From Streptomyces sp. NBRC 109706 (lineage in GTDB: Bacteria > Actinomycetota > Actinomycetes > Streptomycetales > Streptomycetaceae), in assembly GCF_000974485.1 (NCBI RefSeq), contig NZ_BBOM01000005.1, positions 666,289-730,288 of the forward strand: a DNA stretch of 64,000 bases. Direction: 5' to 3'. The notes beneath the pieces were generated by a model. It was not told the DNA's origin, made no database searches, and saw only the letters and a list, made by a program, of their open reading frames with translations. Below are positions 28,109 to 33,553 of this stretch, piece by piece. Made by a program: the position numbers and the translations under genes. Positions within the stretch are counted from its first letter, which is position 1; each line of letters starts with the position of its first letter.

Positions 28109-29590
28109 ATGAGGACTGCTTACCGAGCGCAGACCGTGCGCGACGCCGAACAAGCCCTGCTGGCACGGCTCCCCGACGGCACGTTGATGAACCGCGCCGC
28201 GGCCGGCCTGGCGGCCGTCTGCGCCGGGGCGCTCACGTCCGGCACGTCCGGTGGACGGCGCGGCGGGGCCCGGGTGGTGCTGCTGGTCGGCAGCGGCGAC
28301 AACGGGGGCGACGCGCTGTTCGCCGGCGCCCGGCTGGCCCGCCGGGGCATCGGCGTGACGGCGCTGCTGCTGACCCCCGACCGGGCGCACCGGCGCGGGT
28401 TGGCCGCGCTGCGCGCCGCCGGCGGGCGGAGCCTCGCGGTCGCGGACACGGCGGAACGGGAGCTGACCGCGCTGCTGGGGCGGGCCTCGCTGGTGGTCGA
28501 CGGGATCGTCGGCATCGGCGGCCGGGGCGGACTGCGGCCGGCCGCCGCCGAGTTGGTGGCGCTGGTCGAGCGGAGCGGGACGCCGGTAATCGCCGTCGAC
28601 CTGCCCAGCGGCGTCGACGCCGACACCGGCGAGGTGACGGGCCCCGCCGTGCGCGCCACCGTCACCGTCACCTTCGGCACCCACAAGCCGGGCCTGCTGA
28701 TCGACCCGGCGCGGAGCCACGCCGGCGAGGTGCGGCTGGTCGACATCGGCCTCGGGCCGCTGCTGCCGGCCGAGCCCGAGGTGGCGGCGCTGACCCCGGC
28801 GGAGGTCGGCGCGCTGCTGCCGCGCCCGACGGCGGAGAGCGACAAGTACCGGCGCGGCGTGCTCGGCGTGGCCGCCGGCTCCGCCCGCTACCCGGGCGCC
28901 GCGGTGCTCACCGTGGGCGGCGCGCTGCACGGCGGCGTCGGCGCGGTGCGGTACACGGGCCCGGCCCGCGACGCGGTGATCGCCCGCTATCCGGAGGCAC
29001 TGGTCAGCTCCGGCACCCCGGCCGAGGCGGGCCGGGTGCAGGCGTGGACGGTGGGCCCCGGTCTCGGCGACCACCCCGAAGCGGCACGGGTGCTGGACGA
29101 GGCGCTGGCCGCCGATGTGCCGCTGCTGCTCGACGCGGACGGGCTACGCGGACTTGACCCGGCCAGGGTCCGCGCCCGCTCGGCGCCGACCCTGCTCACC
29201 CCGCACGCGGGCGAGGCGGCGGCCCTGCTGGGCCACGACCGGGCCCGGGTGGAGGCGCAACGGTTGGCGTCCGTACGGGAGTTGGCGGAACGTTTCGGGG
29301 CGACCGCGCTGCTGAAGGGCTCCACCACGGTGATCGCCGACCCGGCGGGCGGCCCGGTGCTGGTCAACGACACCGGCACCCCGTGGCTGGCGACCGCCGG
29401 CAGCGGCGACGTCCTCTCCGGCCTGGCCGGCGCCCTCCTCGCGGCCGGCCTCCCGGCCCACCACGCGGCAGCCGTAGCCGCCCACCTCCACGGCCACGCC
29501 GCCCACCTCACCCCCCTCCCCCCCACCGCCTCCACCCTCACCCAATCCCTCCCCACCGTCTGGCAAGAACTCCTCCCCCCGACCCCCTGA
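28109..29590 (+). CDS. nnr: Bifunctional NAD(P)H-hydrate epimerase / ADP-dependent dehydratase
   Basis: The 493-residue fusion repairs damaged NAD(P)H hydrates. The N-terminal YjeF_N epimerase domain (about 1-220) has GSGDNGGDALFAG and VDLPSGVD; the C-terminal YjeF_C dehydratase domain has TPHAGEAAALLG, LLKGSTTVI and the nucleotide-binding TAGSGDVLSGLAGALLA. ATG 28109 starts the known N-terminal RTAYRAQTVRDAEQALL. The C-terminal tail is Pro-rich. It is divergent from alr and followed by a 466-bp gene-free stretch. Confidence 0.96.
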   Translation: MRTAYRAQTVRDAEQALLARLPDGTLMNRAAAGLAAVCAGALTSGTSGGRRGGARVVLLVGSGDNGGDALFAGARLARRGIGVTALLLTPDRAHRRGLAALRAAGGRSLAVADTAERELTALLGRASLVVDGIVGIGGRGGLRPAAAELVALVERSGTPVIAVDLPSGVDADTGEVTGPAVRATVTVTFGTHKPGLLIDPARSHAGEVRLVDIGLGPLLPAEPEVAALTPAEVGALLPRPTAESDKYRRGVLGVAAGSARYPGAAVLTVGGALHGGVGAVRYTGPARDAVIARYPEALVSSGTPAEAGRVQAWTVGPGLGDHPEAARVLDEALAADVPLLLDADGLRGLDPARVRARSAPTLLTPHAGEAAALLGHDRARVEAQRLASVRELAERFGATALLKGSTTVIADPAGGPVLVNDTGTPWLATAGSGDVLSGLAGALLAAGLPAHHAAAVAAHLHGHAAHLTPLPPTASTLTQSLPTVWQELLPPTP

Positions 29591-30056
29591 CAACGCACCA
29601 CCACGCGGAGCGCTAGCCACGCGCCGCGCTCGCCACGCGGGCCAGGCAGGGGGCAGGGGCGCGCTCTCCGCGCGGGCCGGCGCGGTGAGGCCACGCCGTG
29701 GCGGGCCGGCGGCGGGGGGCCGGCCACCGGGCCGGGGACCACAGCCACAACCCGCCGCGCGGGCCGGCACCGTGGCCGCGCCGCGCACTCGCTGCACATG
29801 CCCGGCGGCGGCGCAGCCGCTCCGGGCGGGCGCAACACCGACCGCCGAACGCCCCAGGCCGGCAGCGGACCTGCCACCCCCACCGGACAGCGGCAACACG
29901 CGACGCACTCGCCACGGGAGCCACCGCACGAAGCACACGACGTCCGGGCCCGGCCACATCCGCCGCCGCCCGGTCCAGCGGCAAAGCCGCCGCGCGCCGC
30001 GCCGCGCGGACCCGCCAGCCGCTCGCGAGGGTGGGCGGGTGGGCGGGGCCGCGCGG
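29591..30056. other. GC-rich spacer between nnr and acpS
   Basis: A 466-bp gap lies between convergent genes. It is extremely GC-rich with many short CGCG-containing inverted repeats (for example CCGCGCGGGC) but no clean single terminator. Open frames on both strands have no credible start, ribosome site or family resemblance. I see no gene in it. Confidence 0.6.
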
Positions 30057-30434
30057 CTAGGCCGCTTGGCCCTCCGCGATGACCACCGCGGAGGCGACGC
30101 CCGCGTCGTGGCTCAGGGAGATGTGCCAGCCGGTGACACCGAGGGCCGCCGCGCGGGCCGCGACCGTGCCGCGTACTTCGAGTCGGGGGCGGCCGGACTC
30201 CGTCTGGATCACCTCGGCGTCCGTCCAGCGCATTCCGCCCGGCGCGCCCAGCGCCTTGGCCAGGGCTTCCTTCGCGGCGAACCTGGCCGCCAGCGAGGCG
30301 ACGCCGCGCCGTTCGCCGCTGGGCAGCCACAGCTCCGCCTCGACGAAGAGCCGGCGCGCCAACTCGGGTGTCCGTTCCAGGGATCGGCCGAACCGTTCGA
30401 TCTCGGCCACGTCGATGCCCACGCCCACGATCAT
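30057..30434 (-). CDS. acpS: Holo-[acyl-carrier-protein] synthase
   Basis: The 125-residue AcpS-type phosphopantetheinyl transferase activates the fatty-acid ACP with Co[13 protein letters not shown] (metal-binding Asp) and [14 protein letters not shown] (WxxKEA-type catalytic Glu) are intact, as is the C-terminal [13 protein letters not shown]. Its ATG overlaps the stop of the GlmS-like gene as ATGA, so the two are translated together. This is also the order acpS follows after glmS in related genomes. Confidence 0.97.
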
Positions 30435-31090
30435 GCGTGCAGCACGCCCCCCTCGGCGTCGGTGATCTCGCATCTGACCTCGTCCCACTCCCGGCGCAGC
30501 AGCACGATCTGCTCGCCCGGCGTGCCGGCGAGCGACAGCACCTCCCCCGGCGGTCGGGCGCCGAGCGCCGCCTCGTCCGTGGCGACCAGCGCCTCGCCGA
30601 CGCCGAGGCCGACCGTCAGCGGCAGCCCGCGGCGGGCCGCGACCAGGGTGTCGGGGGCGTCCGCGTGCAGGGCCAGCAGCGCGAAGTCGCCGCGCAGCGC
30701 GCGGCAGACCTGGCGCATCGCCTCGGCCGGTTCGGCCGCCGAGGAGAACGCCTCGGCGAAGAGCCGCGCCACCGCCTCGCCGGGGGCGCGGCCGTCGGCC
30801 GTCGGCTCGCCGGCCAGCGCCACGGCGACCCGGCCCGCGTCGTCCAGCCGGGGGCGGCCGGCGAGGCCGAGGCCGCAGCCGCCGCTCGGCGGCGGGCGCA
30901 GCCGCAGCGCCTCGCTCAGGGCGGCCAGCGGCCCGTCGGCCGCGCAGGTCGCCAGGCCACCGCCGTCGGCCAGCACGGCGACGCCCCAGGCGTCGCGTTC
31001 CGGCCCGTCCGGCCGGCCGAGATCGGCCAGTTGGGAGAGCACCACATCGAGGGCCGACCGCACACCCGTGTATCCGACGATCCCGCACAT
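30431..31090 (-). CDS. Degenerate GlmS-like glutamine amidotransferase domain (no isomerase domain)
   Basis: The 219-residue protein aligns end to end with the N-terminal glutaminase domain of Glm[18 protein letters not shown] keeps the catalytic Cys after the initiator Met, and [14 protein letters not shown]-like [18 protein letters not shown] and [14 protein letters not shown] match. The RWATHG glutamine loop and the HNG and TDTE motifs are deleted or replaced, and the entire sugar-isomerase half (about 370 residues) is absent. Glutamine hydrolysis therefore looks lost. It sits where glmS lies in related genomes, divergent from coaA and coupled to acpS. It could be a relic, a Cys-dependent Ntn hydrolase with a new role, or a regulator of real GlmS. 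Confidence 0.8.
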
Positions 31091-31148
31091 GTCGGCAGCG
31101 TATCGGGGGCGCCGTGAGCCCCGTGGCGGCGGACGGAACAATGGGCGG

Positions 31149-32099
31149 GTGGCCATCTCACCGTCGTCCAGGCGCCCCGCGCGCCCGACCCCCTATGTCG
31201 ACCTGTCCCGCGCCGCGTGGAGCCGTCCACCGGACGGCGAGGCGTCGCCGCTCAGCGCCGAGCAGGTGGAGCGGCTGCGCGGGCTCGGCGATGTGATCGG
31301 CCTGGCGGAGGTCAGGGAGGTCTATCTGCCGCTGGCCGAGCTGCTGCGGCTGCATATCGACGCGGCCCGGCAGCTGCGCGGCCGGGTGGGCGCCTTTCTC
31401 GGCGGCCCGCAGCCGGCCACCCCGTTCGTGGTGGGCATCGCCGGCAGCGTGGCGGTCGGCAAGTCCACGGTGGCCAGGCTGCTGCGCGCGCTGCTGGCGC
31501 AGGGCCCGGAGGAGTACCGGGTCGCGCTGGTGCCGACCGACGGGTTCCTGCTGCCCAACGCCGAGTTGGAGCGGCGTGGACTGCTGCGCCGCAAGGGGTT
31601 CCCCGAGTCCTACGACCGGCGGGCGCTGACCCGGTTCGTGGCCGAGGTGAAGTCGGGGCGCGCCGAGGTGCGCGCCCCGGTGTACTCGCATCTGGTGTAC
31701 GACATCGTGCCGGGTGAACGGGAGATCGTGCGGGCGCCCGACATCCTGATCCTGGAGGGGCTCAACGTGCTCCAGCCGGCGCCGCCCGGACGGATCGGCG
31801 TCGCCGACTACTTCGATTTCTCGGTGTATGTGGACGCCGGCACCACGGACATCGAGAGCTGGTATCTCCAGCGTTTTCTCGCGCTGCGCGCCACCGCTTT
31901 CCGCGATCCGCGTTCCTATTTCCGAAAGTACGCGGAAATCTCCGAGGAAAAGGCGTTGGACTTCGCGAAGGACACCTGGCGGGAGGTCAACGGGCCGAAT
32001 CTGGTGGACAATATCGCGCCCACCAGGGGCCGCGCCTCGCTGGTGCTCCGCAAGGGGCCCGACCACTCGGTGCAGGGCCTGCGGCTGCGCAAGCTCTGA
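31149..32099 (+). CDS. coaA: Type I pantothenate kinase
   Basis: The 316-residue P-loop kinase phosphorylates pantothenate, the first step to Co[13 protein letters not shown] (97-107) is the Walker A, YDIVPGE and [12 protein letters not shown] are family signatures, and [10 protein letters not shown]-type substrate residues follow ([11 protein letters not shown]). The start is a GTG with a weak GGGCGG site. It lies beside acpS, which uses CoA, so CoA making and use are neighbours. It converges on glmM with a 28-bp gap. Confidence 0.97.
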
Positions 32100-32127
32100 G
32101 GCCAGGACCGGAGAAGAGCCGCGCCGG

Positions 32128-33486
32128 TCAGCCCAGCGCCGACTTGACGACGTCGGCCAGCCCGGCGGCGACCGCCCGCGCCTGCGCCGCGTCCGCCGCC
32201 TCCACCATGACCCGGACCAGCGGCTCGGTGCCCGAGGGCCGCAGCAGCACCCGGCCCGTCTCGCCGAGCTGCCGCTCGGCCTCGGCGACCGCCTCGGCCA
32301 GCTCGCGGCTCTCCGCGACCCGGCCGCGGTCCACGTCCCGCACGTTGATCAGCACCTGCGGCAGCCGTTCCATCACGCCGGCCAGCTCCGCCAGCGGGCG
32401 GCGGGTGGCGGCGGCCCTGGCGGCCAGCAGCAGCCCGGTGAGGGTGCCGTCGCCCGTGGTCGCGTGGTCCAGCACGATCACATGGCCGGACTGTTCGCCG
32501 CCCAGCGAGTAGCCGCCGCGCTTCATCTCCTCCAGCACATAACGGTCGCCGACGGCCGTCTGCTTGAGGTCGATGCCCTCGCGGTCCATGGCCAGGGTGA
32601 AGCCCAGGTTGGACATCACGGTGGCGACGACGGTGTTGTGCCGCAGCGTGCCGGCCTCCCGCATCGCCAGGCCAAGCACGGCCAGGATCTGGTCCCCGTC
32701 GACCTCGGCGCCGGCGCCGTCGACGGCCAGGCAACGGTCCGCGTCGCCGTCCACCGCGATGCCCAGATCGGCGCTGTGGCTCAGCACGGCGTCCCGCAGA
32801 TGCTCGAGATGGGTGGAGCCGCAGCCGTCGTTGATGTTGAGCCCGTCGGGCTTGGCGCCGATGCTGATCACATCGGCGCCGGCGCGGGCGAACGCCTCGG
32901 GCGCCACCCGGGAGGCGGCGCCGTGGGCGGTGTCGATGACCACCTTGAGGCCGTCGATCCGGTTGGGCAGCACGCCCACCAGATGCGACACATAGCCGTC
33001 GAAGCCCTCGGTGTACTCGGTGACGCGGCCGACGCCGGCGCCCACCGGGCGGTCCCAGGACTGGCCGGCCGCGTGCTCCCGGTAGCAGGTCTCGATCCGG
33101 TCCTCAAGATCGTCGGCCAGCTTGTGGCCGCCCCTGGCGAAGAACTTGATGCCGTTGTCCGGCATCGGGTTGTGGCTCGCGGAGAGCATCACACCGAAGT
33201 TGGCGCCCAGCGCGCCCGTCAGATAGGCCACCGCCGGCGTGGGCAGCACGCCGACCCGCAGCACGTCGACGCCGGCGGAGGCGAGACCGGCGACCACGGC
33301 CGCCTCCAGGAACTCGCCCGAGGCGCGTGGGTCGCGGCCCACCACCGCGGTCGGTCGACGGCCGTCGGGACTCTTCGATCCGGTCAGCACCTGGGCCGCC
33401 GCGACCGACAGGCCGAGCGCCAGCTCAGCCGTCAGATCCTCGTTGGCGACACCGCGTACACCGTCCGTACCGAAGAGTCGTCCCAC
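32128..33486 (-). CDS. glmM: Phosphoglucosamine mutase
   Basis: The 452-residue enzyme converts glucosamine-6-P to glucosamine-1-P for UDP-GlcNAc. [11 protein letters not shown] opens the protein, the phosphoserine loop is [11 protein letters not shown] (Ser104), the metal loop is DGDADR and the C-terminal phosphate loop is [15 protein letters not shown]. The GTG at 33486 is chosen because a GGAGG site lies 8 bp before it; an upstream in-frame GTG at 33507 would place that site inside the gene. It is downstream of rplM-rpsI but behind a terminator. Confidence 0.97.
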
Positions 33487-33553
33487 TGTTCTTTCCTCCG
33501 AGTTCACCCACGCGGCCCGTGACCGTTATTCCTGTCGACCCTATAAAAGGGGG

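Follow-up and report, generated by a model that had tools for sequence, protein, structure and literature searches.

In the window, the stretch of 64,000 nucleotides from Streptomyces sp. NBRC 109706 that was analysed here, the site between coaA and acpS holds an intact gene for the glutaminase domain of GlmS and nothing of its isomerase half. Why is such a piece of a central enzyme kept? It may be decaying, it may have become another enzyme, its reading frame may serve only the gene behind it, or the protein may have taken up a non-catalytic role. We use GlmS1 as a label for the GlmS copy at the coaA–acpS site.

The truncated glmS1 gene and its locus

The features of the locus are the following, in window positions.

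28109–29590, plus strand: nnr-like gene, presumably for NAD(P)H-hydrate repair
30057–30434, minus strand: acpS, holo-ACP synthase; its first codon and the stop of truncated glmS1 overlap in ATGA
30431–31090, minus strand: truncated glmS1, a pseudo-glutaminase of 219 residues with the GlmS glutaminase-fold domain only
30446–30454, minus strand: GAGGGGGGC in the last codons of the truncated gene, a possible ribosome-binding site of acpS, found by eye
30467–30484, minus strand: clade hairpin motif DEVRCE, residues 203–208 of the truncated gene, from the clade alignment
31097–31102, minus strand: −10-like TACGCT, 6 nt 5′ of the truncated glmS1 ATG; TAnnnT is shared by the truncated and intact glmS1 genes compared
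31149–32099, plus strand: coaA (so named in the earlier note too), divergent neighbour, presumably pantothenate kinase; start codon uncertain
32128–33507, minus strand: glmM, presumably phosphoglucosamine mutase

The protein of truncated glmS1 begins with MCGIVGYTG and its frame is intact. It aligns with the glutaminase domain of intact GlmS1 up to about residue 236 and then ends. The linker and both SIS isomerase domains are absent, and the same holds for all nine genomes found to carry such a gene. A full glmS1 lies between coaA and acpS in four (G004, G036, G364 and G226) of the six glmS1 comparison genomes followed over a wider stretch. In G198 the order is the same but a frame change splits glmS1; in G012 glmS1 precedes acpS and no coaA was found within the stretch. 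A contig of Streptomyces sp. 2131.1 (L154) also carries a full glmS1 followed by acpS; this intact glmS1 is the best among the 80 contig matches listed for the truncated gene, none of which is more than 44% identical. The comparison genomes thus bear out the earlier note, made from the window alone, in placing a truncated GlmS at the usual glmS site. The 219-residue frame shows the MCGIVGYTG start with its nucleophilic Cys that the note had read there, and alignments to intact GlmS1 confirm that the isomerase half is gone and the glutamine-pocket motifs are broken. The note had also allowed for a full glmS at this site, the short gene being an error; no full glmS is there.

Family models match the protein in part. 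NCBIfam NF001484, with a cut-off of 381 bits, scores 69.7, and the partial match to TIGR01135 (GlmS), 62.2 bits, falls short of the curated cut-off of 418 bits for the full-length protein. No Pfam family was found for it up to E=1. A sequence search of the PDB puts GlmS at the top (1xff, E 5.6e-10). Plasmid records gave no tblastn match at 1e-5, and no truncated or orphan GlmS domain is described in the titles and abstracts listed by the literature searches. An RNA element at the locus was also considered and dropped, since positions 29500–32200 give no Rfam match at gathering scores.

Loss of the glutamine pocket and a new hairpin motif

We take the glutamine pocket to be formed by Arg26, the RWATH loop, the Asn of HNG and the Asp of TDTE, with residues numbered as in the intact genes compared here. 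Arg26, Trp74, Thr76 and Asn100 (HNG) are lost in all nine truncated genes. Gly101 is kept in all nine, Cys1 in eight, Arg73 in five, Asp125 in three and His77 in one. The window gene retains the Cys nucleophile after Met1 and none of Arg26, Arg73, Trp74, Thr76, His77, Asn100 and Asp125. The loops that held the lost pocket residues vary in length and contain no conserved replacement, and the middle region of the truncated genes is variable and partly of low complexity.

The single change at Cys1 is an Arg in G144, a draft assembly and the only one for this case; apart from it the first strand, MCG[IM]VGY, is conserved. The G144 branch has an omega of 0.17 versus 0.22 elsewhere (2dlnL 0.66), which shows no relaxation. 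The presence of Cys1 in eight genomes, Arg73 in five and Asp125 in three leaves room for some chemistry.

A set of 20 intact GlmS1 domains has 146 invariant columns; the truncated genes keep 41 of these in all nine cases and 26 in no case. The truncated genes also share a hairpin with the motif D-E-V-R-x-E, in which D203, R206 and E208 are present in nine of nine and E204 and V205 in eight; none of those 20 intact domains has it.

Predicted fold

The AlphaFold2 model of the truncated protein, built with 53 relatives, has a pLDDT of 92.2 and a pTM of 0.90. Aligned by VIA-align to the glutaminase domain of E. coli GlmS (1xff), it gives a Z of 28.9 and 1.7 Å over 204 residues; PurF, human GFAT-1 and EgtC rank next. 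The aligned relatives, all GlmS proteins, steer the predicted fold, and the model from the single sequence reaches a pLDDT of 42, so that the modelled fold depends on the alignment. From the model we infer that the truncated protein would fold as an Ntn alpha-beta-beta-alpha domain like that of 1xff.

Promoter element and coupling to acpS

The truncated gene is open in all nine genomes, which are separate assemblies, and disrupted in none. Its length ranges from 219 to 263 codons, and therefore several indels have occurred, all of them in frame. It overlaps acpS by 4 nt (ATGA or GTGA) in nine of nine. The same overlap is found in 14 of the 37 intact genomes where the script located the acpS start. 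The junction of the truncated gene and acpS is G-rich in the seven junctions matched.

All nine truncated genes have TAnnnT followed by 6 nt and the ATG. All 50 intact glmS1 genes compared have the element before the ATG as well, with a spacing of 6 nt in 26 and 7 nt in 24; it reads TAGGCT in 33 of the 50. A −10-like element so near the ATG suggests a leaderless transcript.

Selection on the protein

Omega was estimated with an MG94-type codon model of our own, with nucleotide frequencies taken from third positions. For the truncated gene omega is 0.214 over nine taxa and an omega of 1 is rejected (2dlnL 317.6); over eight genomes the values are 0.202 and 297. Smaller sets give 0.119 (G180 and G061), 0.151 (clade A), 0.224 (three B genomes) and 0.199 (seven genomes). 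The acpS genes of the same seven genomes have an omega of 0.076, the coaA genes of four genomes 0.061, and the glutaminase domains of intact GlmS1, in three sets of four, 0.053–0.062. Constraint on the truncated gene is partly relaxed, its omega being three to four times that of the intact domains. Residues 126–195 have an omega of 0.062 in clade A, like intact domains, and of 0.142 over eight genomes.

The estimator was checked with 16 four-taxon simulations. It returned 0.81–1.05 for neutral sequences, 0.69–0.81 for neutral sequences on a less GC-rich spectrum, and 0.12–0.17 where the true omega was 0.15. Pairwise NG86 ratios are 0.26–0.68 for seven truncated genes, 0.08–0.29 for acpS and 0.06–0.14 for coaA, all below 1. 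They exceed the omega of the codon model, which we attribute to the strong GC bias, a feature that NG86 does not take into account.

Intact genes have a second-position GC of 0.46, and in the truncated genes it has increased to 0.51–0.62; a neutral gene simulated on a 95% GC spectrum reaches 0.92. Of 400 eight-tip trees simulated on the spectrum with the strongest GC bias, 29.5% stayed free of stops, so on such a spectrum the absence of stops alone is weak evidence. On spectra of 80%, 70% and 50% GC the stop-free fraction was 0.000.

The protein of the truncated gene is under purifying selection, and neither neutral evolution nor disrupted frames, the marks of a pseudogene, are found.

Occurrence and age of the truncation

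A first draw of the genus contained 36 genomes besides that of the window; each of them had a glmS1-type match whose open frame spans 544 residues or more, and a second GlmS match. The larger draw of the genus comprised 392 genomes, including that of the window (G000), and was first searched at E≤1e-24, which 360 of the 392 match. Among the matches listed, at least seven are truncated (G000, G180, G061, G144, G295, G145 and G210), with 253–319 residues between stops; the remaining matches listed have frames of at least 603 residues.

The 32 genomes without a match at this threshold, 20 of them and another 12 named from gaps in the match list, were searched separately. One further truncated gene was found, in G369. 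Seven genomes (G008, G068, G163, G198, G202, G386 and G399) have glmS1-type matches; in G163, G198, G202 and G399 these are pieces in different frames, either lesions or assembly errors. In G198, a genome in one contig, glmS1 (L274, 7096–8939) is more than 90% identical to the reference and changes frame after about codon 41, which may be a real lesion or a sequencing error. Another 23 genomes have one weaker match each, and G300, an assembly of 1770 contigs, has none. Twelve of the 23 single matches are of the GlmS2 type, with at least 55% identity to GlmS2 of G000. We infer the same type for the other 11, where some assemblies are fragmented. In total, at least eight of the 392 genomes carry the truncated gene and 24 show no glmS1.

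The draw of the order, 391 genomes, yielded a ninth truncated case, G570, at E≤1e-35, a threshold that would overlook copies as diverged as G369. The junction pattern, run on 375 genomes, recovered the first seven cases and no others; it is not complete, since it missed G369.

In a 41-genome tree from up to nine concatenated proteins, of which many comparison genomes contributed few, the eight truncated genomes of the genus are monophyletic with an ultrafast bootstrap of 100. G137, which has no glmS1, is sister to this clade, and G226, with an intact gene, comes next. With G570 included, FastTree places the nine truncated genomes in one clade with a support of 1.0. Identity among the nine proteins is as low as 51%, and therefore the truncated state is old. 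The truncation predates the divergence of the nine sampled genomes.

The remaining GlmS and the SIS-only protein

Glucosamine-6-P has to be supplied by another GlmS, as the earlier note expected, and the genome search found it. In G000 (7.74 Mb in 26 contigs, completeness 100) exactly one GlmS exceeds the family cut-off, G000:C22:277396-279210, outside the window. It retains Cys1, RGYDS, HTRWATHG, HNGI, TDTE and SQSGET. The other eight genomes likewise have one GlmS each above the cut-off, elsewhere in the genome. We assign the remaining enzyme of eight of the nine genomes to the GlmS2 type; its motifs are intact.

One source (PMC4398421) reports both glmS1 and glmS2 of Streptomyces coelicolor as members of the DasR core regulon, and another (PMC13170358) names SCO2789 of this species GlmS2. 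GlmS2 of Streptomyces is the paralogue type taken to remain in the clade, with intact motifs in those eight genomes. It is a full-length enzyme at a different locus, whereas the truncated gene is a domain at the glmS1 site.

A 350-residue GlmS-like SIS isomerase protein without a glutaminase domain is encoded at G000:C22:211138-212145 (L002). Such a protein is encoded in all nine truncated-gene genomes. It is also listed in one piece in nine of 14 comparison genomes; three of these nine carry an intact glmS1 and the remaining six lack glmS1.

Loss of glmS1 elsewhere in the genus

In eight genomes without glmS1 the gap between coaA and acpS is 127–666 bp, and four truncated-gene queries gave no match in it at E 1e-3. 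TAnnnT lies directly before the acpS start in G147, in G237 and in the group G208/G071/G129/G074, all without glmS1. In G229 the element and an ATG stand a short distance upstream of acpS and form a very short ATG leader. No TAnnnT element was seen before acpS in G162, G112 and G137, also without glmS1, and in G117, G187 and G105 the scripted call of the acpS start is doubtful. In these genomes glmS1 thus went without leaving a recognisable remnant, and in some lineages acpS seems to have taken over its promoter. The loci with a captured-looking element 5′ of acpS are L123, L128, L133–L136 and L121. G159 and G192 have neither glmS1 nor a good acpS orthologue (best E 1e-10 and 2e-9); either contigs are missing or acpS was replaced.

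A probable retained pseudoenzyme and its alternatives

The sequences display what is expected of a pseudoenzyme, namely loss of catalytic residues with purifying selection kept. We regard it as reasonably probable that the truncated gene is a pseudoenzyme retained for a non-catalytic role, probably binding. In the ancestor of the clade a deletion would have taken the GlmS1 linker and both SIS domains. What is left is a glutaminase domain that ends at the acpS start, and a single deletion is suggested by the tree together with the junction that the genes share. The complete GlmS elsewhere is the sole one remaining in each of the nine genomes. The orphan domain has retained the old promoter element and the ATGA or GTGA coupling to acpS. 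The glutamine pocket has been lost, and purifying selection has held the scaffold, mainly its C-terminal half, and the new hairpin motif. Given the loss of the pocket and the selection on scaffold and hairpin, the domain would be translated, take the Ntn fold and bind a protein or ligand instead of hydrolysing glutamine. As a guess, the likeliest partner would be either GlmS2, contacted by surfaces that the domain has from GlmS1, or AcpS, which shares its message. A more specific proposal, which we put forward tentatively and hold to be rather doubtful, is that the dead GlmS1 domain is a regulatory subunit that binds GlmS2 or AcpS with the DEVRxE hairpin as the contact and thereby ties the supply of amino sugar for the cell wall to the activation of acyl carrier protein.

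Coupling to acpS, which the earlier note had pointed out together with the intact frame, stands in all nine genomes, and it could itself explain the gene if the frame were kept solely as a translational leader that brings ribosomes from the old glmS1 promoter to the acpS start by way of ATGA. The invariable 4-nt overlap, the kept promoter element and the possible ribosome-binding site in the G-rich last codons agree with such a leader. Several genomes without glmS1 have TAnnnT directly before acpS, and therefore acpS can probably use that promoter. However, a leader requires an open frame and not a sequence, and omega is 0.21 for the gene and 0.06 for residues 126–195 in clade A (0.14 over eight genomes). 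Nor is a leader of 219–263 codons needed, as glmS1 was lost elsewhere with the element moved to acpS. Loss elsewhere without a retained domain makes its retention in nine of nine genomes of the clade the more telling against a mere leader, which we consider unlikely. An active enzyme in which Cys1 serves as the Ntn nucleophile on another amide or thioester is, in our view, quite improbable. Cys1 in eight of nine genomes and the otherwise conserved first strand would suit it, but Arg26, Trp74, Thr76 and Asn100 are lost in all nine, the loops offer no conserved replacement, and G144 has no Cys1 and yet no relaxation. The new amidohydrolase that the earlier note suggested has become unlikely on the same evidence, and we prefer its other suggestion, a regulator, seen as a pseudoenzyme with a binding partner.

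Decay has in its favour the raised second-position GC and the variable, partly low-complexity middle region. Against it, and against an assembly artefact, omega is far below 1, frames are open in nine separate assemblies, and a derived motif is conserved in the clade; we reject neutral decay on the omega and the undisrupted frames, and give decay or artefact very little probability. The earlier note was right to suspect selection (omega 0.21, 2dlnL 318 against neutrality). Its early fossil of gene loss does not fit a truncation that predates the split of nine genomes and has no disrupted copy, and the frameshifted relatives it had envisaged are absent among the eight other genomes, as are stops. 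A split GlmS, in which the truncated protein feeds ammonia to the SIS protein at G000:C22:211138-212145, would account for the presence of the latter in all nine truncated genomes. That protein type, however, also occurs in nine of 14 comparison genomes, beside intact glmS1 and without glmS1, and therefore did not arise with the split; the pocket residues are gone as well. The split was rejected on this distribution and is the most improbable of the readings. A retained pseudoenzyme remains the preferred reading.

Comparison with known class II domains

The truncated protein shares with the GlmS glutaminase domain (1xff, 3ooj) common descent, genome position, the modelled fold (Z 28.9) and, in eight of nine genomes, Cys1. 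Unlike that domain, it is free-standing without isomerase domains, has the DEVRxE hairpin and lacks the four pocket residues. The free-standing class II types EgtC (4zfk), 1te5 and 3mdn are also single Ntn domains, of about 220–260 residues (Z 14.5–19.5). They are separate families, whereas the truncated gene is a shortened GlmS1 that still occupies the glmS1 locus; EgtC is termed a hydrolase in its PDB title (4zfk). The N-domains of beta-lactam synthetase (1jgt, Z 12.3) and carbapenam synthetase (1q15, Z 9.3) have a class II glutaminase-type fold. In these synthetases the glutaminase activity was lost and the domain kept. Their dead domain is still fused to the synthetase domain, whereas the truncated GlmS1 has lost its synthesising half.

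A paralogue of a central enzyme may die as an enzyme and yet survive as a protein, and the clade offers a replicated case. Genomes of the genus offer three states side by side, glmS1 intact, its dead domain retained, and glmS1 lost with no recognisable remnant, which makes the reason for retention testable. Annotation by domain, as a class II glutamine amidotransferase, would misassign the function of the truncated gene.

Gene order beyond acpS

The nnr-like gene (28109–29590 in the window) is inverted in each of the nine truncated genomes (the others at L261–L266, L290 and L295) and there converges on acpS. It is codirectional with acpS in all eleven comparison genomes examined.
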